This document shows, in pieces, positions 5,217-35,568 of a stretch of 64,000 bases of DNA. The stretch lies in the NCBI RefSeq assembly GCF_003144195.1, contig NW_020290009.1:70181-134180 (forward strand), read 5' to 3'. Both the position numbers and the translations under genes were made by a program. The stretch is from Ceraceosorus guamensis (taxonomy: Eukaryota > Basidiomycota > Exobasidiomycetes > Ceraceosorales > Ceraceosoraceae). How positions within the stretch are numbered: the first letter of the stretch is position 1; every line of letters starts with the position of its first letter. The notes beneath the pieces are model-generated. The model made no database searches. It saw nothing but the letters and a program-made list of their open reading frames with translations, and was not told the DNA's origin.

Positions 5217-6854
5217 TCACCACTTTCCGACGCGTCCCTGATGGTCGCGCACGTTGGCCTTCAGCTCGCCAACTTGACGGATCAGATACGTCTCTCCCGG
5301 TGTGGTGTACTTGGTAGCGCGCGCGTCAACTCCTCTCAAGTCGAGCTCGTCTTGAGGTGCAGAGAATTGAGCCTTGGGAGGTCTGGCGTTCTCGGGAACA
5401 GCCTTGTCCACCGCCTCGTTGGCAGCAGTGCGCAGCCTCTCGGCTTCCGCCAGCTCGTCGCTGGCCAATCGGTAGCCACCGTCCAAAACGCCAACGCGCA
5501 TGCCAGCGAGCAGATTGTGCGCTGCGTTGCTGTGGTCGTAGATACCTCCGTTGAATGCGGTGGTTGCGTCTTTGCCAATCTTGGCCTTGAGCAGGTGCTC
5601 TCCACCAGGGTGCTCCGCAATGAATGCAGACACGTCGTGGATGAATCCGTGGATGACCATCAAAGGACGCGTCTTAGCCTCCTCCTGGTAGTCGTCCCAC
5701 GAAATGACGGGCAGATTGTTGCTGTGCTTGGGCCAAGTGAGAGCGGCTTGCTCAGCGTGAAGCTTCTGCAATTGCATAGCCACACGTCCCTTGCGCACTT
5801 CGTTGTCGGGGAACACCTTGAGATGGCTGGCGAGACCAACGGCTTGCATGGCGCTAATGAACCACTTCGTGGGGTCGTACTGGTACCATTGCACTGCGTT
5901 GCGATAGTCCATTGGGAATTGATGGTGGAAGTTGTGGTAACCTTCACCAACGGTGACCAAAGCGGTGATGAAGTGGTCGCGAGGAGTCATCTTGTTGTCG
6001 AAGGTAGCCTCGCCGAGGTAGTGGGCGAGAGAGTTGACACAAAAGGTGGAGTGGTGAACAAACACGAGACGAGCGACGCCTGCGTAGAAGAAACCACCGC
6101 GCCAATCTCCCCAACCCAGGCCAGCGACCACGGTGGGAAAGCCAAAGCCCATGATGAAAATGAGGGGCAAGTAGAATTTGTGCTGGAACTTGATGACCGA
6201 ATTGCGGCGCAGGTCACTGATGTCTGCCACACCAGGCTTGCGGCGGGGCTTGACGATCATCCATCCGAGGTGAGACCAAAGCAAACCGAAGTGAGCGCCG
6301 TAAGGATCAAGGTCGGTGTCCGTGTATCTGTGGTGAGCGCGGTGGCCGCGAGCCCACCAGTGAATGGAGCCTTGGACGGCACCGCTGCCCCAAAGCGCGA
6401 GAATGTACTGCAACGGCTTTGAGGCGTTGTAAGATCGGTGTGCCCACAATCTGTGGTAACCAGCAGTGATGCCAAGACCTGTCCAGAAGTAGTAGATCAA
6501 CGACCAGATGGCAGTGGGCCAGGTCATCTTTGTGGTGCAGAGACCGTAGACTGCGAGCAAAGGAGTGGTGGTGAGGACGATGGCGGAGACCCATTGAATC
6601 TCGCTCAAGAGGTTCTTCCACTGGATAGGTGGCAACGCTGGCTCGCGTTCCAGTGTGCGGGTAACGTAGTCGTCAGGAATGTCATCGTCAGGGTGAAGCT
6701 TGTTCGTCGCCGCCTTCTTGCCACCTCGAGATGGGACAGCAACGTCGACTTCCTCATCTTCGGATTGTGGCGGGGAAAGCTGATCTGCTGGTGGAGTGCG
6801 GAGACCAGGTGCGATGGGCTCGAAGCCCGCTCGCTGTCTGATCTCAGATGTCAT
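5217..6854 (-). CDS. OLE1: Delta-9 acyl-CoA desaturase with C-terminal cytochrome b5
   Basis: Single exon, 545 aa. It introduces the first double bond into palmitoyl- and stearoyl-CoA in the ER membrane, drawing electrons through its own cytochrome b5 domain. The three His boxes are intact: HRLWAH (about residue 133), HRAHHR (about 170) and HNFHH (about 306). The haem-binding EHPGGEH lies near residue 414, with the second haem His in NAAHNLL. Hydrophobic segments flank the first two boxes. The start is the ATG opening MTSEIRQRAGFEP; the frame is open further upstream but without another conserved start. The 545 aa compare with about 510 in yeast, the excess being a polar N-terminus. A 409-codon open frame on the other strand is a codon-bias shadow. 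Confidence 0.96.
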   Translation of the reverse strand: MTSEIRQRAGFEPIAPGLRTPPADQLSPPQSEDEEVDVAVPSRGGKKAATNKLHPDDDIPDDYVTRTLEREPALPPIQWKNLLSEIQWVSAIVLTTTPLLAVYGLCTTKMTWPTAIWSLIYYFWTGLGITAGYHRLWAHRSYNASKPLQYILALWGSGAVQGSIHWWARGHRAHHRYTDTDLDPYGAHFGLLWSHLGWMIVKPRRKPGVADISDLRRNSVIKFQHKFYLPLIFIMGFGFPTVVAGLGWGDWRGGFFYAGVARLVFVHHSTFCVNSLAHYLGEATFDNKMTPRDHFITALVTVGEGYHNFHHQFPMDYRNAVQWYQYDPTKWFISAMQAVGLASHLKVFPDNEVRKGRVAMQLQKLHAEQAALTWPKHSNNLPVISWDDYQEEAKTRPLMVIHGFIHDVSAFIAEHPGGEHLLKAKIGKDATTAFNGGIYDHSNAAHNLLAGMRVGVLDGGYRLASDELAEAERLRTAANEAVDKAVPENARPPKAQFSAPQDELDLRGVDARATKYTTPGETYLIRQVGELKANVRDHQGRVGKW

Positions 6855-9852
6855 GCTTGACGGTACAGGTACGATGCGACTATGAATAGTGTTGCCAAAC
6901 CTGAGGAGGTACAGTGATGTTGTGGATGGCGTGTGATGGAGTAGCACGGTGCGGGATTGAAAGAAGTACGGATAGGACACAGCGAGGTTTATGTATGCTG
7001 TGACTGATGAGCCGAGTTGGAGCCAATTGCTGCACGCCACCCCGGCTTTGAGGTGAAAGCTGATTCCCGTTAGCCGGTCGAGCTGCGCCTCGAGCCAACA
7101 CAAACGTCGTGTGTCTGTTGCTGTGCGGTCGAGAGGTGCAGTCCGGGGAATGAGGCCGATATTCGAACTTTGGACAACCATGCGCCAAATCGGAGCTGCC
7201 CTTGGAGCGCAGAAACCGCGAGGTCGAGGCCTGGCCGACCGTTCGACGTGTAGATTTGCACATGCATTCGTTTAGCTCTAGACTTAGCGTTTCCTGTCAG
7301 CATCTCATGACCAAGTACTACGCTACTCTGACTGTATAGCCTCCAACTTGGCAAATGCCGAGCTCGAGATTGGGCGCCTTTAGCCCTGGAAGAGATGTGT
7401 GCTGGGGTGCTCAGCGCGCTCCGTTGTCGTGACACGTCTGCATTACTGATGCCAAACCGGGAGCGGCCGGAATTGCGCCTGCGCTGGCTTCGTTGGCTCG
7501 GCCTGGAGTTGGAATCATGCGCCGAATTCGTCCTGAGGCAGGGAGAGCACACGTCAATACAGACTGACTGAGCTCAGCGGCCCAGAGCACAGAGCTGTGA
7601 GTCGCGCGCGCAGTCCGTTAGCCGTGACCATGGGAATGAACTCTCATCATGGCTGTGCTGCATGCTGGGGAAGCCGCGCTGGAAGAAGACTCAAGACTGC
7701 TCTTGATCACGCGCGTTATCGCCACAACGGTGCATGCAGCCGTGTCCAAAAAGTTTGGGGCAGCGCACGCGGGCCGGCATTCGTGATTCGTGACTTGGAC
7801 TGCTCATACGCCCTACGAGCACACTGCATGCATGCGCCCGCGGAGGTTTGGTTTCCGCGCGCCGACATGCACGCATCAACCATCACTCACTCCTGCGTGA
7901 TTGTGGCCAGCATAACCTCGTTCTCCGGCCAAGCTCGCTGATGTACGCGCCCGCCCCAACCACGCGCTTCTGACCCTGCGCGGATCGCGTCGCTGCTGCG
8001 TGGAGGAGCCATCAGCCTTGCGTGCAAGATGGCTTGAGATGAGCCCCTCGGCCATCGGCCATTCGGCCATGTTGCAGCCGCCTTCGACCCAACCACAACG
8101 AAATGTGACTGGCGCCGCGAATGCTCGATCTTCGGTGTATGAAATCGTAAATAACCAAGCTCCTCGTGCTGCCTGTTTTTGCTGCACATGGGGCGCGGAA
8201 GTTGGATTCACGACGCGTGATTGCATGATACCATGGTGAGGGAAGAAGCCGCGCGGGATGCCGGGATGTACTGTAGGATATGATCCCTGCACAGTCACGC
8301 TTTCCGTGTCTGGCTCAAATTATCCCCATACTCTCGCCGCCTACGTCACTGACTGAAGCCGCAGACATCCAACTACTTTTGACTGTATGTGTGCTCATGC
8401 CAGATTGGGAAAGAAAGAGAAAGCTTCCGTGCGACGATGACGGTCTGTGGACTGGTGAGCACAAAGTCGGGATGGCGATGTGCTCGCCTTTGACCACGGC
8501 AACGCTCAGCGCGTACCAGAGACGTGAGAGAGCGAGTGGCTGCGCTAAGCTCGGCTAGGGAGACAGACGCGCGTCTGACGGCTGTTTGGTCTCAGTGAGT
8601 GATCGACATCGCGTCATGCTTCCAATCCAGCAGTCACCCGGCCTGTGAGTAATTTGTGGTGTGAGTCAAAGTTTGAGTTCCAGCCGAGCGTCGATCAAGG
8701 CCTTCGCGATTGAGTATTCAGATGATTTCACGCGCGCTTGCGCACGCGGCGTCTTGAGCGCAAGGCTAATAACGCTCGATCGGCCACTCAGCTTGATGTG
8801 CGCATGCTTGCATATATGTGTTGCCACTCTCAGTCAGCAGGACTCATGCATGCTGCTTGCTGCTGGTTGTGCATTATTTGTTGGGGCGGATGCATGATGC
8901 ACGCACAGACTTCGCCACCCCGATTGCGTCGGGCGCACTCACCGGCTCATGCGGATGCAGCCAGCTTGGCGATGGCAGAATACTCTCGATTTCTTTCTGC
9001 ATTTCACGCCCTCGTCTTCAACATCCAACAAGCAACACTCGCTGCAGCTGCAGCCAAGTCGTGAGTGCGACACTCAACAGCCTCTTCTTGAGGCTAGCTG
9101 CCGTTGAGCGCATGCATCCACCACTTGTGACTGCCTGTCCATCTCGTTACCTCTACTTCCATCTTCATCTTGCCATCGCACTTGCCGCATTCGACCAACC
9201 TCTGCCTCCACAACCCTGTACCGATGAACAGGGATGACCTCGTAATGGGACAGTCAGTCCCTCGTGCGCGTGCTGCGTTCGAAAGTGCACGCAGCGTCCC
9301 CCAGACGTTGGCAGTGCCTGGTGCCGAAGTGGTGTAATGATTGGGATCACAGGGACCTAGCAGTGTGGCCGGTGAAGCGTGCGACGTCAGATCACTGCAC
9401 TGCACTTCGTGTCCGTCACTGTAGCTCGCAATGATCGTTGGCCCGATCGTGGACAAAAGCAAGGCAAAGCTGCATGTTCCGTTGATGTTACTCGAGGGAC
9501 GGCAGGACCGTTTGCTTGCTCAGCCTTGAAAGCCTGGCGCGCCCACACACGCCCCGCCAACTCCTCGTTGCTCTCCTCGCGAGACGTTGGATCATTCGCA
9601 CCATCATTGTGATCTTCTGTTGCCAGCATCCATCCTTCCTTTCAACCCCCTCTTCACCCTCTTCCCTTCTAGTCAGGCCAGGTGCCACCTTTAATTTTCT
9701 ATCTTGCCCCCTCCCCTCTTTCATTTAACCATCTCCAGACTTTGGAGGAGCGGCGGGCTGCGCCTCCTCAGCCTGCCCCATCATCCCCAGCACCACGTCA
9801 GGGACGTTCGCATGGAGAAGCTGGCTCGCTATTTTTCTTATCACATTTGATC
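6855..9852. other. Three-kb divergent intergenic region, no supported gene
   Basis: It lies between the OLE1 start and the start of the membrane protein gene. The open frames here are short, overlap on both strands and show no family motifs. The last 240 bases before 9853 are pyrimidine-rich (for example 9630-9730), typical of a fungal leader. The length suggests large regulatory regions or an unrecognised non-coding transcript. Confidence 0.6.
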
Positions 9853-19497: not shown

Positions 19498-22400
19498 TCA
19501 GCTGCCGCCAGTTCTGCCCGAGCCGTGATCGTTTTCGGCAATCCTGAGCGCAATGACGGTGAGGATGACGGTGGTGGGAGCGCTAAGTATGACGTAGGCC
19601 ACAAAGATGGTCTTGCTGATGAGCCTCTCGAAACCTCCATTCTTTGAGCTCTGGGTGATTTGTGCTAGCGTGAGAGCTGGTGGACTTCCAATGAGCAAGA
19701 GGGCACAGACAATGAGCACCGGATCATCCGCCACATTTTCCCTCGTGGCGATGCAGTAGTAGGCAAAGATGGGAATGACCACTAGCGGAGTGATGACCAT
19801 CCTAGCCAAGAGCGATACGGCAATGGTGCGCCTCTCCTGAGACGCTTCTCGACGCTCTGCCGCTTCGCGCGCGCCTACTCGAGAAGCGCCGCCGCTCTGT
19901 TGACGCAGCGCTGACCCAGCAGGTCCAGCTGCGTTGCTTCTTGCGTTCGAAGCGGCTTCCGAGCTCGGACGAATGGCCTCCGAGACCGAGGCCGTGCTCG
20001 CTTCGCTAGCCGCGCTGCTCCAGCCGACAGAGTCTCTCCGGACTCCAGCCTCTACGTCCTGACCCTCCTCCAGCAGTTGCGACTGCGAGCCCCAAGGATT
20101 CCGCATCCACGGCAATTTTCTGGTCGAAGATGCGCCCTTTTTCTGGTCGGCTTGGGTACCATCGCCAGCAGGATCACTTTCGGGATTCGGATGACCAACG
20201 AGCGTCGAAGCTTGGCTCAGACCTTCGCCCGACTGAGCGGCATCCGGAGCGGATCTGGAAGAAGTCTGAGCAGCCGGCGCTTCCGCCTTCTTCCCGGGCT
20301 CAGGTGGCACAAAGTAGGCTCCCAAGACGACCATGGTCAGTGGAACACTGACAGAGCCAGCGGTTTGCAGAGCTCCAACCAGCGGTTCGATGCTGCCAAT
20401 CGCAACTTGCAAGGGACGAATCATGGCCACAATGAGACTGATGACGGCGGCCCAGAGCGGCATCGTCATGAAACCCATGAAAGCTCGATAGGGCTTGAGC
20501 ACGTAGCGATGCGCAAAGGATTTGCGTTTGTGCGCGGAACGGCTGCTGGCAGTCCTTGCCCACGCTGGACGACGCGTGGCATCAGAGTGCTGAGAGGCTT
20601 CCTCCCCATCGCTCTCGTCATCGGACCCACGCTCGGAGGAAGGCGCAGTGGGCGTGTTTGGGAAGCTGCGCGTCCAGTGCACAGGGCGCGATCGGGAAGG
20701 TCGCCGCTCGGTCAACGCCGGACCGCCAAGATCCTCATCGCCTTCTGCATCGGCTCGGACGTCGCCGGTAGCTCTGCGGATCTTGATGGACGGAGGTCGC
20801 CTTGGCTCGACGGCACTGTCATCCACATCGATCAGCGTTCCTGTTCTGGCAGATGAGGTAGGCTCGGGATAGTCGGCGTATTGCGCTCCACTTGGTCCGG
20901 CCGTCGCGTCCTTCGAGGGCTCTTCATCCACAGTTGCAAGCAGCTTGGCACCGATGCTCCACCTGGTGAGCATGCCCAGAGTCGAGAACAGCACGAGATA
21001 CGTGAGAGCTCTGCCGAGCATACCGTCTACAGTATCTTCTGGTTCCCCCTCTTCCTCCCAGTGCAGTTGTGGCACAGTCATTACAAGACTTTGCATCAAG
21101 GCTACCGGAAGACTGTTGGAGTTGGGACTCATCGCGCAGGCGATGGCAAAGTTCCTCTGTGCGCGCGTAATGCGGGCTATCCTGGCCAAGACGTACGCCA
21201 CAATAGCGCTGAAGGCGCTCACAACAACAAAGCCTATGGGCACGATTGCCAGCTCGGCAAGTCGTCCAGGGTTGAGCGTGAAGGCCACCTTGCTAAAAAG
21301 CAGAGCGGGCGTAAAGAAAGACACGTTGATCTTGTTCAATTTCGTCTGCGTCGTCTTGTCGATGACCCCTCTTCGAGCCAAGAAGTATCCTACGACGCTG
21401 AGAAGCGCCACTTCGATGATGCTAGAGGCTGTGACCTTGATGAGCGGCCACAAGGCACCGCCTGAGCCTCCAGAACCATCGCCGTCATGCCGGCTCGCGA
21501 CGTCAACGAAAGGGACCTGATCGATCTGAAATGCGGATAAAGGCAATTGCGTGAAGCTGCTGGGAGCGAGGACGGTTGATGCTTTGGCGGCCTGCGCTTC
21601 AGGTAGAAGAACCGTGTTGAGCACAGCGGCAAGCCGTGTTCCTGCCATTGCAAATTGGCGCTGCAGCACGAGGTCTCTGCGTGCGAAGGAGGTGCAGTCA
21701 GCAACAAGGAGCGAAGGCGGCGCAGAGACGAATAGGGCGATGCTCACCTGTCGACCTTGCCAGCATAGTCATCACCATCGAGCTCTGGGCGCTCCTCGCT
21801 GCCTGGGATAGGCACTGGGCTGGCGAAGCCATACTTGCAGACCAGAGGATGAAGAGGTTTGGCCCAAGAGTATGGGCACAAAGGCTGGCTAGAGTCGTCA
21901 GAGTCGTCTCCGGGGGCCAAAGACTGCAAAGACCTTGCTTGGACAGCTACGCTGGCGGGCAGGGGCAACAGTCCTGCCACATTCTTGAATGCTTTGGTGG
22001 TGTGAGGTAAGAGGCCGTCCGAGGAGAGCCATGTATGCGCCGCACCTTGACCCGGTATGTGCTCTGCTCTACTCGATCGACTTGCAGTAGTGGGGCACTG
22101 AGACCATTCTTCCGCGTCTTCCCACCAGGCCTGCTTGCCTCCCTCGAGCGTCTGTCCGAGACCTTCCTGCAAGATCCAGCGTATGTACGCGTCGTACGGT
22201 CTGCGTTGGAGGGCTGACTCGATGCGCGCGGATCGGAGGGGCGAGGTGTGATTGGACAGGGTACGAATCTGACGATTGAGCATCAAGCTGTCCCACACTG
22301 TATGGAGCTTGGCAGCTCGACCTTCAAAGTGCACCCAAATGTCGTTACCTCCTCGAGCTCTTCCCGTCAAATGAAGCGGTTGGTGCATGTCGCCCAAGAG

Positions 22401-22965
22401 ATGAACCACCATCCGCAGAGCCATATCCCTCTCCCACTTCCTTTCCTCTTCCGTCAGACCCGTATGATCTGCAGTGCCCGGAACGAATTCCTTCAGCCTT
22501 CGTGTGTAGTTTGTAGCTGCTGTCAAAACATTGTCGCTGCTCGTCCATCCCCCATCCTCGCCATAGGTGCAATGCGTTGGAGGTACGTCGTTGAGCGGGT
22601 TGACATAATGCAACTTGGAAGCCCAGGGGTATCTGTTGCGCACCGTGTCTGCCCAAGAAGACACAGCTCCCAGGTGACAGCTGCGCGCGGTGCCAAGCAG
22701 AAGGGGAGCCCATTGAGTCGCTTGCATCGCTCTCCGTCCCTGCAGAGTGTACTCACTGTTTGTGCGGTGCGCCCTCTCGGGGCCACTCGCTTCGATACGC
22801 TGACCATTCTGGCAGGATTTCGCAGAGGTAAGATCTGACATCTGGATGGAGCATGCTCTGCGCGATCGTAGCTACGATGGAATGTCCGACCGCGCCCCAC
22901 GCTTCGACGGAAGTCGAAAGCAGGGACACGGTAGCCAGGGCAGCCAGGAGGCTGAAGACTCGCAT
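19498..22965 (-). CDS. S1/P1 nuclease spliced in frame to an auxin-efflux-carrier (PIN-like) membrane domain
   Basis: Exons 22965-22757, 22680-21748 and 21676-19498 give one 1106-aa frame. Residues 1-22 are a signal peptide; cleavage would leave Trp23 of WGAVGH as the mature N-terminus, as zinc ligation in S1/P1 nucleases needs. Other ligands are present: HLGAVSSWAD, LHYVN, VVHLLGDMHQPLH and LHTVWD. The last conserved helix (AMAGTRLAAVLNTVL) lies in exon 3, across a splice that joins cleanly after YAGKVD. The same frame then runs into a Mem_trans carrier: first span near residue 456 (SSIIEVALLSVVGYFLARRG), conserved CAMSPNSNSLPVALMQSL, a long acidic loop, and a C-terminal block (IGSPPALTLAQITQ). 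Relatives of each half are normally separate: a secreted single-strand nuclease/3'-nucleotidase and an ER or plasma-membrane transporter. Alternatively they are two overlapping genes; the only Met before the carrier is inside the nuclease helix. Confidence 0.8.
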
Positions 22966-26086: not shown

Positions 26087-29000
26087 TCAGACTTGCGCAG
26101 GTTTGACGATGAGCGTAATGATGGCGCCAGTGTAGAAGATTTCGTGCACCTGCACGTCCAGCACGGTGCCGATAGGTAAAGGCGGCGTGGCCCTATCCCA
26201 AAGCATCTCGGCAGGCAATCCGAGATCGGTCAATTGCACCCTGACTCGAGCGTCATGTCTGACCCTGTTGAATCTCAGATCGGCCAAAGAGACCACTGCC
26301 GGCTGAGGTTTCAATAGCGCAGCTTCTACCTCTGACAACTCCTCCCCTCTGCCCCTCTTTTGCAGAACGCGGTGCAGCTTCATGCATGCCCAAAATTGAT
26401 CGATGGTCCTTTCGTTCGCCGACATTCTTTGTTCCATGAATTTGAACCTGGGCAATTCCCCTTGCAGCTCTTGCACGCTCCACCTCGGTTTGGCACCTCG
26501 AAGCGCAGATTTGATCTGCCAGTGCGTGATCAGATCGACATACCTACGAAGTGGAGAGGTACCTCTAGAGTAGCCTCCTTTCGTGAGTGCATCTCTCACT
26601 CCCTTGGTACCGTCGGCCGTGATACCAAGGGCAAAATGAGGCACCGGAACGGTGGATGCGTATCCCGTGCTGACCCTAATATCGCTAGTCAAAAAATCCA
26701 CTTGATTGATCCTTCCCATTTCATCCCTCCTGCGCAAGATGCGCGACACATCGGCTGCGGAGGGAGAGCTTTGTCCTCGATAGATGACTGGCACATTCAG
26801 ATCAGAGGCTACAGTACCTGCTACCCTGCCGGCCAGTATCATCGCTTCGGCCACCATCTCTTGAGCTATGCCAGTAAAATGGTTCGACTCTCGCGAAGCT
26901 GCAGAATGCATCTTGAGATCAATCGACGGGAAGCCCTCGTAGATGTTGAGCGTTGAAGCAGCGTCTGTCGAGGGATGCAGCGGCAACGGCATGGGCTCCA
27001 CCTTGACGTCGACGTTCGTTCTCGAAGCGAAAAAGGCGCCATCCTCGACTCGGCGGCGCATCAACGACTGGGTCACTTTGTGCAGCTGTCGCACGGTCTC
27101 TGCGTGCCCTGAGATGCTTGGAGGAGAAGCGCCTTCTCTTCCTCCTAGTATCCTACCAATCTCTTCGTACGTAGTCACCTTGACGTTCTTGACCAAAGAT
27201 GGTCTCACCTTGTAGTCGTGCACTCTGCCCCTTTCGTCGACCTTGGCGCTGTAACTCAACGCTCTGAGACCTTCATCCTGCCTCCTCTTGGCCTCTGTCT
27301 CTTCCAAGCCTGCTGAGCCAAGATGGCTGGCTACGGTGAAAGAGTGAGGCAGCATTGAGATCTGCTGACCGGATAGATACGTGCTTTCATGTCTTCGCTT
27401 GGCTTCAATAGCGACTGGATCGCTCGATTCTAGAAAAGCCGTTGGGTCGGCCACATGTACATGCATCCAGTAGGTTCCCGGTGATTCGGGTACTTTCTCG
27501 ATCGAAACACCGTCATCTAGCTCGAAAGCCATCGCATCGTCGATGACGAACACTTCCAGCTGGCCAAAGTCGTGTCTCTGAGTCTCCGCTTCTGCAGCCG
27601 TGAGCTGCACCTTAGTCGAAGCTGCGGTGGACTTGTCTGCAGCAAACAGCGTCTTGTAGTAAGGATCGAGATCCAACGTAGTCTGCCAAGGTGCCAGAGC
27701 TCCGAGTCGAAGTAAGAGATGGTGCGTGACGGCGTGTTGCAAGTCAGTCGCGCTATCGATGACATCGCTGCCTCTTCCTTCGAGGAAAGGCGGCACTTCA
27801 GATGGTTCACCCTGAATCGTGGGTCTGACTGCAAAGTCCAGACCACATCCCTTCACAATCTGCGACGCAAGTGCGCCGTAGTCGTTGCCTTGGAGAGCAC
27901 TCGTGCGCCGTGTGCCAAGCATGGTCTTAAGGAACGTGATTATCGTCGCGTCATCCTTATTCCATTCCACTCCCGGCCCATCGCAATTTTGCAGTGTGAC
28001 GGCGCGGGGTGCGCCCTCTTCAAAGGACACATCCTGTTTGCTCCTCCAGTCCAAAACCTTTTTGGCTTTGGAGCAAAAGGTTTCGATAATGCTCCGACCA
28101 GCTGAGCCAGACGGAGAGCGTGCCCAATTCTTGACGAGCTCCATCGAGGTGCGCTCTTCAGGTAACCGACCGGCATACAGCAGGGTCTGCAGATACGCAA
28201 AGGTATCGGGCAAGAAAGCGTGTGTATGCTGGAAGAGAAGCTGATGAACTGCTAAGACGGTGATGGCTCTCAAGCCCGGATCTTCAACCTCCAACTCCTG
28301 CTTCTTTTCCAGAACGTATGGATTTTTCCCAGCCTCAGCCTGCGCCTTAAGCGCTCTTCTCATCCGCACCCTGGTAAGCGGCTTGGTGATGACTCGATTG
28401 ATCTTGGGAACATTCGACGAGGCGATCGCATAGAGTGCCTCATCTATGTCCGAAGCGACTTCTTCAGCTGAGAATGTCCCGCCTTCCTCGCGCAGGGCAT
28501 CAGGATCCGAAAGGCAACGTCGGGCGACGACTGGAGCGAGCCTCTTCTTCTCCTCGTCCAAAACATGGGCAAAGACTCTCAGATCTCTAGTGATACGATT
28601 TCTGGCACTGAATCGGTCTTCGTCGAACGGCTCCTCAAACGGATTGATGGGATGCTTGGCCCGGTCTTCTGTCGATCTTGCTGCTGCTTCTGAGCCTTGC
28701 AGCTCTGTTTCGAACGAAACAGCATTGCCTTGCTCTTTGAGGATGCGGAGATGTTCGTCAAATGTCTGTGCCGCCGGAGCATCTACAGAGTCGTTCGCAA
28801 AGTACTTCGCCTCGGTGGGTGTCGCTCTGGCTGCCAAATCACGGTTGAAGAAGTCTGCGATTCTGAACATGAGTTCTGACGAGGATGCCAGGTAGACTGA
28901 ACCTTTTGACGTCAACAACGCCTTGTTGTTTCTCGCGATAAGAGTGTCCCCTCGAGACCTTTCGCCAGTGCTACTATAGTCCTCGTCACCCGTCACCTCT

Positions 29001-29920
29001 GGCATCGGCAAGATGGCACACAGCTCCGGCGACCCACTTTCGCCCTTTATCCACTCCACCACATCTCCCGGTCTAGCATCCACACTGGCAGCGCCCACGC
29101 TCGGCGCCTCGAACAGCATGGCCCTGATGCGCTTCTTGAGTCTTTCGATGCTCGATTTGGCCTCGCTATCTCGCAACGACCTGGCGTGCACCTGAGCCTT
29201 ACTTTCTTCGGGAAGCGGCGTCTTGCCTGCGCTTCGAACGCCAAATTGGAATCCAGGCTGTGGGCGTCCAAAAAGAGTGCCAGGCGCTTTCGAGTCAGAG
29301 CTGGCACGTCCGTCATTTCCAAAGAGGTCATGCGTATCTTTTGAGCTGCCTCCGACATTTGTCGCGTCTTTCGCATCATCTGCTGGAGAGGCATGGCCCG
29401 CATCGTCTCCGTCTGGAGGGGCCATTCGCTTGTCTGCAAGCCTTGCGACGCCGTAGAACAGCGCATCCTTATTCCTCTCTGCCTGCTCCATTTCTGATCT
29501 TCTCCTAGCCAGCCGCGCATCCCGTGCACGGTCGATCTCCGCCCAGTGAGCCTTTTCCTCGAGTATTGCGGCATTCTTTTGCCTTGACCTTTCCCTGTAC
29601 ATCATCGCCTTTTCGGACACCGCTGGTCTGGGCGGTACGAGGTCCTGAAATTTGTTCCTAGCCTGCGTCTTTTTGATGTAGCCAGACTCCTTGGCGGACA
29701 TGTCGCTTGGATCGTATGCTAGCTGTCTGAAACGCCCATTGATTCGCAGGGAAGACGAAGTGTGCATGCATGAGGTGCTCGAGCAGCCAATAGCTGTGGA
29801 CGTCCTGCGAGTTGTCGCGTCAACCTGAGACCGTGCAATGGAAGACGACGCAAGGGTGCCCGACCGTGACGGCCCCGCCATGGTGCTTGGGGGCCGCCTC
29901 AGCTTCATTGCGTGCATCAT
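26087..29920 (-). CDS. DSS1: Mitochondrial 3'-5' exoribonuclease, RNase II/RNB family (Dss1/CYT-4 type)
   Basis: Single exon, 1277 aa. Dss1 is the ribonuclease of the mitochondrial degradosome with the Suv3 helicase. The first about 65 residues are rich in Arg, Ser and Thr with few acids, as in a mitochondrial presequence. A long family-specific N-terminal region follows. The RNB domain starts near residue 790: FVIDDAMAFELDDGVS gives the Asp cluster that binds metal, then HVHVADPTAFL. Further RNB signatures are SMLPHSFTVASHLG and RGTSPLRRYVDLITHWQI near residue 1125, and the C-terminus is an S1-like fold. Two adjacent ATGs open the frame (MMHAM). It is divergent from SAC3 with 616 bp between starts. 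Other RNB proteins (Dis3, Ssd1) lack this presequence and layout. Confidence 0.9.
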   Translation of the reverse strand: MMHAMKLRRPPSTMAGPSRSGTLASSSIARSQVDATTRRTSTAIGCSSTSCMHTSSSLRINGRFRQLAYDPSDMSAKESGYIKKTQARNKFQDLVPPRPAVSEKAMMYRERSRQKNAAILEEKAHWAEIDRARDARLARRRSEMEQAERNKDALFYGVARLADKRMAPPDGDDAGHASPADDAKDATNVGGSSKDTHDLFGNDGRASSDSKAPGTLFGRPQPGFQFGVRSAGKTPLPEESKAQVHARSLRDSEAKSSIERLKKRIRAMLFEAPSVGAASVDARPGDVVEWIKGESGSPELCAILPMPEVTGDEDYSSTGERSRGDTLIARNNKALLTSKGSVYLASSSELMFRIADFFNRDLAARATPTEAKYFANDSVDAPAAQTFDEHLRILKEQGNAVSFETELQGSEAAARSTEDRAKHPINPFEEPFDEDRFSARNRITRDLRVFAHVLDEEKKRLAPVVARRCLSDPDALREEGGTFSAEEVASDIDEALYAIASSNVPKINRVITKPLTRVRMRRALKAQAEAGKNPYVLEKKQELEVEDPGLRAITVLAVHQLLFQHTHAFLPDTFAYLQTLLYAGRLPEERTSMELVKNWARSPSGSAGRSIIETFCSKAKKVLDWRSKQDVSFEEGAPRAVTLQNCDGPGVEWNKDDATIITFLKTMLGTRRTSALQGNDYGALASQIVKGCGLDFAVRPTIQGEPSEVPPFLEGRGSDVIDSATDLQHAVTHHLLLRLGALAPWQTTLDLDPYYKTLFAADKSTAASTKVQLTAAEAETQRHDFGQLEVFVIDDAMAFELDDGVSIEKVPESPGTYWMHVHVADPTAFLESSDPVAIEAKRRHESTYLSGQQISMLPHSFTVASHLGSAGLEETEAKRRQDEGLRALSYSAKVDERGRVHDYKVRPSLVKNVKVTTYEEIGRILGGREGASPPSISGHAETVRQLHKVTQSLMRRRVEDGAFFASRTNVDVKVEPMPLPLHPSTDAASTLNIYEGFPSIDLKMHSAASRESNHFTGIAQEMVAEAMILAGRVAGTVASDLNVPVIYRGQSSPSAADVSRILRRRDEMGRINQVDFLTSDIRVSTGYASTVPVPHFALGITADGTKGVRDALTKGGYSRGTSPLRRYVDLITHWQIKSALRGAKPRWSVQELQGELPRFKFMEQRMSANERTIDQFWACMKLHRVLQKRGRGEELSEVEAALLKPQPAVVSLADLRFNRVRHDARVRVQLTDLGLPAEMLWDRATPPLPIGTVLDVQVHEIFYTGAIITLIVKPAQV

Positions 29921-30536: not shown

Positions 30537-33500
30537 ATGAATAGAAACTCATCCCACGATGCGCCGGCCAAGCTGCTGTCGCGTCGCAAGGGTGCCGCGC
30601 CTGTAAGCACCACGCCCAAATCCACATTCTCGAACCAATCGGCGGTGTTTAGCCAGGCCGGCGAAGGGGCATCGTCTCCTTCGGCAGCTGCCTCAACACT
30701 CACAAATGGTGCAGGGGTTGCAAATGCGCCTAGTGCGTTTGGGAACACGTCATGGAAGCCAGCTGCATCCACCACGTCCGCAAGTCGTCCCATCGGTGCG
30801 GCGTTCGCAGCAGCCGAAGCATCCGCAAGCTCGTCAGCCATGCCTTCATATCTTTTCGCTCCCGGCGCCGGTGATCCGGACCCGCCTTCTTCTTCTTCTC
30901 CTGCGCCTTCTATCGGTCAACAAGGGAGTGGACTGGGTCGCTTCATGCGCTCGAGGGAATCTCCTGGCCCTTCGACCATATCGGGCCAGAGGAATGCGCT
31001 GGGAGGAATGGTCGAGACGGACGCTGAGCGCAAGAAGCGATTCGACAAGGATACTGTTGGAAGCGCGATTCGATTCCAGGAGGTGAGCATCGCGTGCCTG
31101 CACAGCCCTCCTTTCCTTCACCACGACTGACAAGCCCGCTCTTTGCCCGTCGTAGCTCAAGGAGCAGCGCGAAGCGATGCGGGAACGTTACATTCGTCAA
31201 GGCGTCTTGCCAGATGATACGAAAGCCCAGGATCTGGCTGCGACTCAAACTTTGCGTGGCACATGCATGGAGATGTGCTCAGAGTTTGAGCGTGTAGAGA
31301 GGGAAGTTCAAAAGGAAGCTGACCCACCCGAGCTTGTGAGTCTCTGTTATGCCTCCCGTACCGCCGCATTAGGTGAAACACACGTTGACAATTTCTCGCG
31401 CACACTCTGACCAGTATCCGGGTACGGAAAAGATAGATCCGAGGCTTGCAGTCAAGATCTATCGCAGACCGGCAGCTGGCCGCGAACTTCCTCTGCCCGA
31501 CGATGTTCGTCCTCCGGCCGTGCTTCGGGTGCGTGTGAATGTTGCTTCTCATTTTTCACATTCTTGGCACGATGTGCTCACTACGTTTCCCGCATACAAT
31601 TGCAGCGCACGCTCGACTATTTGTTTCACACCTTGCTTCCCACAGATCCGTCTTCGACCGAATTTGCCCAAGTCCAAGGTTTCATCTGGAACCGGACACG
31701 AGCTGTGCGACAAGACTTCATAGTTCAGGGTCAAGGCGGACCAATGACCATCGAATGCCACGAGCGAATCGCACGCTACCACATTCTGTGTCTACATTGG
31801 AAGGGCGGTCGAGGCGCGGAAGAATGGAGCGAACAGCAGGAGATGGAACAACTTCGAAAAAGTGAGTGCCATGGGTCGACCAATATGGGAAGTCTGCCGC
31901 GACAGGATCGCTGATTTTGCTTCATTTTGCGCGTTATCACAGCCATCCGAAGTCTGTCCGAATTCTATGCCGATCTTCGAGCGCTGACGGGCAAGAGCGC
32001 ACCCAACGAAGCGGAATTCCGGGCATACGAGCTGTTGCTGCATCACAGAGATCCGGACACTTTGCGAGAGATCGAAAGACTGCCCCCCATCATCTTCGAC
32101 TCGCCTACTCTGCAAACGGCATTGCGGCTGCGAGGCCTTGCTCAGGGCGCGGGTCCCGACAAACCGAGGGACGGCAGTGAAGGCTCGCTCAATCTGTGGA
32201 CTCGTTTCTTTGCGGAGACAAAGAAAGCACGAGTCCCCTACCTGCTGGCTTGCTTGGCCGAGACAATCATCCCGACGGTCCGAGCGGGCGCTCTGCGAGC
32301 GATGTCCTCGGCATACATGGCACAACATCCACCGTTGCCCGTGCAAGACCTGACCAACGACCTCTCATTCGACAGTCAGGAAGAGGCTTTAGAATTTGCC
32401 AGGAATCGGGGCATTGGCGAGCAATGGACGACGGAAGAATCAGGCAAAAAGACGCTAGCTGTGCGGATCGACAACAAGACGGAACGAGCATTAGGTGAGC
32501 GGGATGTCAAAGTAGCCCATAAAGTGTGGACTAACTGCTATCTTATGACGGCTGATGGCTCTCTGATGACTTATCGCACAGTGTCGGATGTACAGCTTGA
32601 GCGTAGTAAAGCAGTCCCCTTCTCTCAAATCGTAGTGGAGAGCAAACGCCAGCGATGGAGCTGCCGCGACATTATCGACGGAGTCGCGTCAGGTGCGACT
32701 CCACTTCTCAACCACGATGGCGGACAGCCACTGCCTGCGCCTTTCCATCCTGCTCGTCAACCATCCGCAGCACCAACGGTACCTTCGAGGCAGTCAGCGA
32801 CGCCGGTGACGGATCACTGGAACGCGCCTACCTCACGCAAGGCTGCACTACCACCACCAGTGATCTCAAGACCAGTGCAGCCCTATTCTGCGCCTGTAGC
32901 GGCTACTTCTGCGTTCGACAATTCATCATCAGGAAGCATCTGGGGTGCGTCTCAACTGCAGTCTCGTTTGGGAGGGGTTCAAACAGATCTGGTGTCTCTA
33001 GCATCGGAAAGTCAATTCGGATCGACACCTACCCCTTTTAGAGCTTCCACATCAGCTGCTGCAAGATCGTCAGCACATCCTTACACCAAACCGTCTTCCT
33101 CTTCCTCTTCTTTCTCGTTTCCGTCTAATACTTCTTCCATCACTGCCCCCTTCTCCACAGCCCCAGGAAACGCAACTTCAACGATGATGGGGCAGTCTAC
33201 CAAAACAGCTAGTAGTGCGTCGATACCGTCTGCCTTCCCAGCACCTGCTGCTGCTGTAACCGCCGGTGCCGCATCTCTGCGCGCTACAGAGTTGCCAAGC
33301 GGGCTTGCTACTGCGGCTGTTGTGCCACAAGCATCAAACGCGCAGGTCGTGAGCGGGAAGAGGCGAAAGGCATCCGATTCTTTCGTCTCCTCCCCTTCTC
33401 CAAGCTCTCCTTCGCACGGCAAGCAGCGAGAGGCATCCAACATGCAAAGTGCAAGAGCTGACGTTGCTCCTCTGCCCGTCGTACGCTCGCTCAGGGAAGA

Positions 33501-35568
33501 AAAAGGGGAAGCATGCGCCGCGCTAGATGCGAGATCACCCTCTGGTCGGCGAGAGTGCATTCAATTTGCAGCCGAAACGCTGTTTGACCGTGCGTTGGGT
33601 GAGGTGCTGAGCTCGGACCTCGACCTCGACGAGCTAGCTCAGCAAGGTGCTGCGGACGCGTTCAGAGACTGGAACATTGCACAGAATGCTTGGGATCTCT
33701 GGCTCGGTCGCCACGACTCTGTGGTGGAAATGGCAAAACAAGCAGAACGACTGGAAGCGGTGCGCGCAAAGCTACGGAGCAGCCGTTTGGGACACGATGG
33801 GGCAGATGCTGATGCTGAGATGACCGATAAGGCGAGGTCGAGCAGTAGACATCTTCTGGGGGATCGCCATGCAGCTAGGCAGCGGGAACAGGACTTGCAA
33901 ACGTTGTCACCGGTAACGATCAGGGCTGGCAAAAAGGACGACGACACGATCAGTGATGGCTTGGTCGTAGCCCAGGCGGACAGAGAAGACCTTTGGGAGC
34001 CCGGCACCTTCTTTGACATCGTCGCCACATATGTGGAAGCCATCACGACTCCGGCACTTAGGCGGTGGCGGAGCGTACTAGTCACGCAAACGTCCGACTC
34101 GGCGTCGGAGTGGTTGGTCCGGAAGCTCATGTTGCCAGGCAATTTGGATGAGTCGATCTCTCAGACGACCCTTTCCGACAGCTCCGGAACGCAGGTAGAA
34201 CTTGCGCACACAACTTTGCCCCGAAAATCTGCCGTCATCGCCTCGCGCGACGTGGCGCTAGTTATCTTCGCGAGCTCATCTGCAGAGACGCAGAGTGACG
34301 AAGCTGCACTCGAGGTCGTTGAAGGGGCACTTGTCAATGCGCGAGGACGCTTCGCGCCTCACATGCTCATGCTCAGGTGGGGCAGTGCTGCGCCTTCTGT
34401 AGCTGAACTGCGGCCGGCTCAGATTAGAAAGCGCGAGGACGCCTTTGGGACGCGAATCTGGTCTAATGTACAGGAAGTTCGTCTGGAAGGCTCGCTCGAG
34501 CAATTGGAAAGTGCTTTCGGGAATGGTCTTGACGAGCTGTTGAGGTTCATCCCATGGCGCAAACAGTCGGCTAGCCAATCCGATGCCCGAGAAGTGCTCA
34601 GCGCTCTCTGGACCCCTCTGGCGGCTGCGGCTCAAGCGACAGACTCCTGCCTCAGGCACTTGCTCGAGGACAAATTGGTCACCGCAGCGACCCCTCGCGT
34701 GTCCGCCGAGACAGCGGCCAGGGTCTTTGATCTGCTATGGCATACCATCAACGCCGTCTCTCGCATCGCATCGAGGCTCTGGGAGGACGATGAGAATGGC
34801 ACGGAGAACGACTTGCTGGTCCTACCGAGCGACGTTGCCAAACTCTTACCTGAGGACACCCTTCCCCTTCAACTGCTCCTAGAGGCAGCTCGAGAGAGTT
34901 ACGCAGAGCTTGGCATCATGGAAGACGTGACTTTACGTGAGTGTGTGACAATGTTCCAAGTTCCACATGCGTGCTGACCACCTTTCCTCACGCTATGTCT
35001 CAGCGTTCTCTGTCGTGCGCTTTGTCGAACAAGTGTTCCAAGGCATAATGGAGAGAATGATTTTGAAGTGCGATGACGGAATGTTACGCCCGAAGAATGA
35101 GCTTCTTTCAGCCATCGCCCGGGCTGAAGAAGTTGCAGCGAAGAGCATTAACGCGATAGCCGCAGAAGATCGCGCGTGGATCGATCTCGCGCGGGTCAGG
35201 CAAATGTCGACGAGCGAAGCATCCTCCCTGCAACCCGTCGCCGACAGGCCGATGAAACAGGCAAGTGCGGCGCTGCCATCTGCAATGATCACGTCGAGCA
35301 AGCGCTCCCCGTCCGAGTCGAGGTGAGCAAGCACGAAAGATTCGATAGTGTCCAGACTGCCATGTTTCTGACGTTCAAGTTTCTTGCCCGTCCATTGCGC
35401 AGCTCGAGGTCAAGCGTTGCTAAGCGAGCCAAGATTGTCCGACCGTCTCGTGCGAGCCCGACCTCGTCCGAGGCTGCTCCTCGTCATGCCGTCGCCACTT
35501 TGCGAGAGCTAATGTCGAATGCGGAGACATTTCTGGAGACCAAGCCGGTCGATGAGTCCTTTGCTTAG
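30537..35568 (+). CDS. SAC3: Nuclear mRNA export factor Sac3 (SAC3/GANP, TREX-2)
   Basis: Eight exons: 30537-31082, 31156-31335, 31415-31528, 31606-31861, 31943-32494, 32582-34936, 35004-35322 and 35403-35568, giving 1495 aa. Sac3 is the TREX-2 scaffold that ties SAGA-transcribed genes and mRNPs to the nuclear pore. Residues 1-182 are Ser/Ala-rich with FG-like patches, as in the Mex67-binding region. The SAC3/GANP domain has GTCMEMCSEFERVERE (near 217), DYLFHTLL, QDFIVQGQGGP, SLSEFYADLR and FRAYELLLHH. A long Ser/Pro-rich middle precedes a CID-like helix. The fifth intron (87 nt) has no stop and is a multiple of three, so retention would add 29 residues. It converges on NUP84, another pore gene. 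Confidence 0.93.

Follow-up and report, generated by a model that had tools for sequence, protein, structure and literature searches.

The stretch of DNA analyzed here, 64,000 nucleotides (nt) of the Ceraceosorus guamensis contig NW_020290009.1 (hereafter the window), carries on its minus strand, between positions 19,498 and 22,965, the coding sequences of an S1/P1-type nuclease (PF02265) and of a PIN-like carrier of the auxin efflux carrier family (PF03547). This locus raises the question of whether the two are neighboring genes or the halves of one. We conclude with high confidence that a single gene encodes one translated polypeptide here, predicted to persist as a single mature protein, and our analysis places it in a recurrent fusion of two known families that is undescribed in the literature searched.

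Reading frame and domains of the fused gene

The three exons of the gene (Table 1) form a single uninterrupted frame of 3321 nt that encodes 1106 amino acids with no internal stop. These are exactly the exons, junctions and frame proposed in an initial annotation of the locus, which had also given the order as signal peptide, nuclease and carrier without an intervening stop, and both Pfam domains were matched in this one frame: PF02265 at residues 23-220 (E = 2.1e-43; 149.5 bits against a curated cut-off of 29.5) and PF03547 at residues 466-834 (E = 2.6e-40; 138.5 bits against a curated cut-off of 25.7). No domain beyond these two was found in the protein by Pfam at E ≤ 0.001, and the carrier forms the C-terminal end of the chain.

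The window protein has all nine zinc ligands of the nuclease family (W23, H28, D81, H94, H163, D167, H173, H196, and D200), and their residue kinds match those in the SmNuc1 listing of PMC11705217, passages of which also describe the N-terminal Trp of S1/P1 nucleases as a zinc ligand. Zinc nuclease activity of the domain is predicted from these residues. The signal peptide was judged by inspection; in the six other complete N-termini of this type examined (P0002-P0006 and P0096), the same Trp is preceded by A or G at position -1 and by V, A or S at position -3. The last helix of the nuclease (AMAGTRLAAVLN) is encoded by exon 3; the initial annotation had placed it past intron 2, in the carrier exon, and this was borne out, the S1/P1 fold being complete with this helix included.

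Since a sequence search with the carrier of the deposited C. guamensis protein P0001 (100% identity to the window over 725 amino acids) matched nothing among solved structures at E = 0.001, we used a fold search on a model of P0006, a fused relative from Exobasidium rhododendri (structure alignment A2, 81 sequences). This model consists of a P1-type nuclease, a disordered linker and then a LYCHOS/PIN8-like carrier. Its nuclease half matches the P1-type fold over nearly the entire chain, and helix 378-410, the counterpart of the last helix in the window protein, belongs to that fold and ends the nuclease. In the carrier half, which has the PIN fold, the match to PIN8 and LYCHOS covers the whole domain, LYCHOS being the best structural match. 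Simple hydropathy gave nine transmembrane helices in the carriers of the window and of P0006, and ten in the standalone carrier P0028.

Fused homologues, deposited gene models and origin of the join

The author of the initial annotation knew of no such fusion and called for a search for the same domain pair in related genomes. Both domains are present in one protein in 16 of the 93 homologues listed (7999 candidates scored), with 44-50% identity to the window query, and a profile search with the fusions returned the same 16 among 80 listed (about 8000 candidates scored). Among the named species listed, the joined protein was seen in E. rhododendri only (P0006, hypothetical protein). The pair was already in protein databases, and the claim of novelty has to be qualified accordingly: no description of the PF02265-PF03547 (P1 nuclease-auxin efflux carrier) pairing was found in open-licence papers, and the main text of a PF03547 survey (PMC9330825) contains no word beginning with "nuclease".

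Trees were built from hand-picked subsets, comprising 47 and then 36 rows for the carrier, mostly from the 93 listed homologues (P0166 and P0168 in the first tree only), and 46 rows for the nuclease (the window, the 16 fusions, P0096 and 28 others). The 16 fusions and the Meira halves described below form one clade in both the carrier tree (100/99) and the nuclease tree (99/99). In the best trees the window protein branches outside this clade, on a long branch of its own; all fused proteins formed one group in 0%, 14%, and 8% of 200 bootstrap trees in three tree runs, yet trees constrained to keep them together were not significantly worse (p = 0.357 and 0.374), a result compatible with a single origin as well as with an independent one in Ceraceosorus. 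Each of the two genes also occurs on its own in Ustilago and related genera, in Tilletiaria, in Parajaminaea, and in others. The longest contigs listed for the separate nuclease and carrier differ in six of the seven named smut-lineage species in which both were seen as separate genes (Tilletiaria, Testicularia, Pseudozyma flocculosa, P. hubeiensis, Ustilago trichophora, and Melanopsichium), a comparison that is indicative only, as the clusters have several members. For the separate carrier P0018 and nuclease P0172 of Parajaminaea phylloscopi, the listed contig size agrees (9,859,025).

A chance open frame was rejected because 16 further fusions fall into a clade-wise pattern, and an assembly artefact because the same join recurs in entries whose source tags differ (ncbi, jgi, ena, and lgn). 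Nor was a paralogue found elsewhere that would turn this locus into a degenerate copy: a six-frame search of the C. guamensis genome (23.8 Mb in 199 contigs) for PF02265 and PF03547 at E = 0.001 gave, among the best candidates, one locus per family, both at the window site, and both matches per family are pieces of this locus.

It could also be argued that there are two adjacent genes with separate transcripts, whose accidentally open frame was merged by gene finders, the carrier starting either at 21832 in another frame, as in the deposited model, or at the ATG at 21648. Several observations weigh on this side and against a single gene. The deposited C. guamensis model P0001 comprises the carrier only and leaves it unjoined to the nuclease, and Meira miltonrushii has split models, in which the nuclease P0096 ("partial") breaks off at RLAAVLNTILLP and P0166, the carrier, begins at MFALDESEQPNKGKHGK. 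A PF03547 carrier is joined to other upstream domains in one listed entry each, namely P0059 (catalase), P0090 (glutamine synthetase), and P0065 (PF02290); these are probably merged gene models, and a caution for fusion claims involving this carrier. Moreover, codon statistics of the 64-residue linker favor the frame only slightly: it scores 4.7, the two remaining sense frames score -6.2 and -2.2, one antisense frame scores above it (5.1), and a second sense frame is likewise free of stops across the linker.

We nevertheless regard two separate genes as highly improbable. The deposited start falls within the conserved exon of the nuclease, in a different frame, and requires a GAG acceptor 2 nt past the CAG acceptor, a use deduced from the residues S-T-D of P0001. 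CAG is the preferred splice acceptor, and positions 21674-21678 hold the two acceptors, GCAG and then AG, 2 bases apart. Without exon 3 the nuclease would lose its last helix: retention of intron 2 brings a stop codon immediately after VDR, and the second acceptor, read in the nuclease frame, gives a 405-amino acid product that lacks the helix and is possible as an alternative splice product. The ATG at 21648, in turn, falls within the nuclease helix, at a position where the standalone nucleases P0097 and P0121 also carry a Met. Across the 17 fusions, no conserved Met was found between the last helix and the first transmembrane helix (TM1), and three of them have no Met there at all, which makes a start codon of the carrier's own, the outcome that the initial annotation had set against its proposal, unlikely. 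Finally, the frame is open in all 17 fusions, although the search favors open frames.

The deposited models themselves can be read in this light. The contigs listed for P0096 and P0166 have the same size (1,273,998), and P0003, a relative on a 46.5 kb contig with 83-98% identity over the matched stretches, is a single 1074-amino acid protein with 34 residues between the points where the M. miltonrushii models stop and start. The C. guamensis nuclease is absent among the 72 matches listed in the nuclease search, in which lengths were limited. Two deposited gene sets (Ceraceosorus and Meira) appear to drop or split the fused gene.

Comparison with the standalone genes suggests how the join arose. 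The position of intron 2 at the intron site of standalone nucleases suggests that exon 3 is the ancestral terminal exon of the nuclease, whose stop codon would have been lost so that it now reads on into the carrier. Among 29 nuclease entries (P0094-P0122, including the Meira half P0096), eight end exactly at this site, GRI(E/D)(R/A/Q), as unspliced open reading frames (ORFs) would, and the stops directly after these residues suggest that the intron phase is shared as well. The 17 standalone nucleases that have the helix terminate 6-47 amino acids beyond it, and standalone carriers mostly open with a short N-terminus, commonly ending in an HGxSGAPI-like stretch. At the position of this N-terminus the window linker ends in a Gly/Ser-rich stretch, with RHDGDGSGGSGGALW where many fusions have HGxSQSPI. 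All 16 other fusions are continuous across the intron 2 site, and because most of those models look unspliced, the intron has probably been lost in them.

Tethering, cleavage and possible coupling

How the two halves may work together can be outlined as follows. One gene would give one chain, in which a signal peptide leads into an S1/P1-type zinc nuclease that a flexible linker joins to a PIN-like carrier with a non-cytosolic N-terminus. Signal peptidase would expose the N-terminal Trp23, whose main chain is a zinc ligand in this family, and folding of the nuclease should therefore take place in the secretory pathway lumen. The carrier would then hold the nuclease in a membrane (endoplasmic reticulum, vacuole or cell surface), where the likeliest use would be local breakdown of RNA or DNA, such that products, phosphate or pH changes would arise beside the transporter. 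The loop charge pattern suggests that the N-terminus of the carrier lies on the non-cytosolic side, which is the orientation that a secreted nuclease in front of it requires, and transport activity of the carrier is predicted from its sequence. We consider it probable that the nuclease stays tethered by the carrier; the membrane-tethered, non-cytosolic nuclease put forward at the outset is supported indirectly by the frame, the helix in the carrier exon, the loop charges and the P0006 model.

Alternatively, the chain could be a precursor in which a Kex2-like protease severs the linker, which would set the nuclease free in soluble form and leave the carrier with an N-terminus like that of standalone carriers, and the fusion would only secure co-expression and equal dosage. 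Kex2 cleaves after KR, a pair present in the linker of nine of the 17 fusions (the window and P0002-P0017), in six cases directly before HGxSQSP, where the standalone-like N-terminus of the carrier starts, and the linker is disordered in the P0006 model. KR and RR are absent, however, from the other eight (the window, the Meira-like P0002-P0005, P0006, P0009, and P0016), and we regard cleavage as improbable. A KxKR or RxKR run, which we take to resemble a Kex2 or furin site, precedes HGxSQSP in P0007, P0008, and P0010-P0013, that is, in part of the Exobasidium-type fusions only.

If the nuclease is tethered, it remains to be asked what the carrier contributes. The carrier may serve only to anchor or localize the nuclease, or the nuclease may be a passenger, the two being functionally unlinked in either case, a reading compatible with tethering to which we give somewhat less than an even chance. 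Passages of the family survey (PMC9330825) call the substrates of fungal, bacterial, archaeal, and animal PF03547 proteins completely unknown, and a membrane-anchored S1/P1-type enzyme without a carrier is described for Leishmania (in part of PMC8554303), both of which are consistent with a simple anchor. On the other hand, conserved features occur in both domains (invariant columns across the 16 fusions and the zinc ligands of the window protein), and a whole carrier exceeds the needs of an anchor, although independent functions would still be compatible with this. That digestion and transport are functionally coupled, as the initial annotation had tentatively suggested, appears unlikely. The specific form of a nuclease-transporter machine, in which a lumen-facing nuclease feeds or is served by the fused carrier and the breakdown products or a co-product are the substrate of the fungal carriers, is rather doubtful. 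For a coupled use of breakdown products, which is conjecture, the precedents are in kind only (the Leishmania nuclease and LYCHOS). If such a machine does exist, Rosetta-stone logic would imply that in Ustilago, Tilletiaria, and other smuts the unfused nuclease and carrier cooperate as well.

The conserved fusion to an enzyme provides a functional hint on PF03547 carriers, and raises the question of whether in other smuts, where nuclease and carrier are separate, the two act together. It can also serve as a natural topology tag, because a nuclease with a signal peptide in front needs an N-out carrier; the orientation is disputed for plant PIN8. Three further ORFs of the window are included in Table 1, the first of them near the fusion gene, and no tRNA genes were found in its 64,000 nt.

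Table 1. Features of the fused gene and other ORFs of the window
Feature	Positions	Strand	Description
Exon 1	22757..22965	-	209 nt; start codon, signal peptide, mature N-terminal Trp23, start of nuclease
Signal peptide	22900-22965	-	residues 1-22; ends V-E-A directly before WGAVGH
Intron 1	22681..22756	-	76 nt; donor GTGAGT, acceptor CGCAG
Exon 2	21748..22680	-	933 nt; remaining nuclease as far as GKVDR; motifs SWAD, SKLHY, VHLLGDMHQPLH, LHTVWD
Intron 2	21677..21747	-	71 nt; GTGAGC...TGCTGAC...CGCAG; coincides with intron site of standalone nucleases
Alternative acceptor AG	21675..21676	-	2 nt downstream of first; exon start would be 21674
Exon 3	19498..21676	-	2179 nt including stop; last nuclease helix, linker and entire PIN-like carrier
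Last nuclease helix	21601..21675	-	about residues 382-406; family-conserved; includes in-frame ATG 21648
Linker	21454..21615	-	about residues 402-455, about 54 residues; Met, KR and RR absent
PIN-like carrier (PF03547)	19501..21453	-	two long loops predicted cytosolic; fold examined on relative P0006
ORF with RNB exoribonuclease domain	26087-29920	-	1277 amino acids
ORF with cytochrome b5 and fatty-acid desaturase pair	5217-7181	-	
ORF with SAC3/GANP domain	31927-34977	+	

Comparison with known systems

Like the window protein, the fungal and plant S1/P1 nucleases (P1, S1, and AtBFN2; PF02265) have a signal peptide followed by Trp and nine zinc ligands, and like P0006 they have the fold across nearly the full chain. 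In standalone relatives the chain stops shortly beyond the last helix, whereas that of the window protein continues into the carrier. The standalone smut carriers ("endoplasmic reticulum auxin efflux carrier", for example P0028 and P0037) are homologous to the carrier half, with the same loop pattern and commonly the HGxSGAPI-like N-terminal stretch, but they have no nuclease, and most have about 15-45 amino acids before TM1.

Two systems offer partial likenesses to the fusion as a whole. LYCHOS (GPR155), described in part of PMC11574030 as a hybrid human protein that combines a PIN-like transporter with a G protein-coupled receptor (GPCR), is similar in that a PIN-like domain is fused to another module. 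Its partner is a C-terminal GPCR-like part with a DEP domain, whereas that of the window carrier is an N-terminal enzyme, and according to the same passages the human protein has no signal peptide; in the window protein Pfam gave neither a GPCR-like nor a DEP domain downstream of the carrier (E ≤ 0.001). The 3'-nucleotidase/nuclease of Leishmania is, according to passages of PMC8554303, a surface-anchored class I (P1-like) enzyme, and a role of this class I nuclease in purine salvage is mentioned in part of PMC13232948. It shares with the window fusion the nuclease class, a signal peptide and a C-terminal membrane anchor (PMC8554303, in part), the anchor being a transmembrane domain in Leishmania and the carrier in the window protein.
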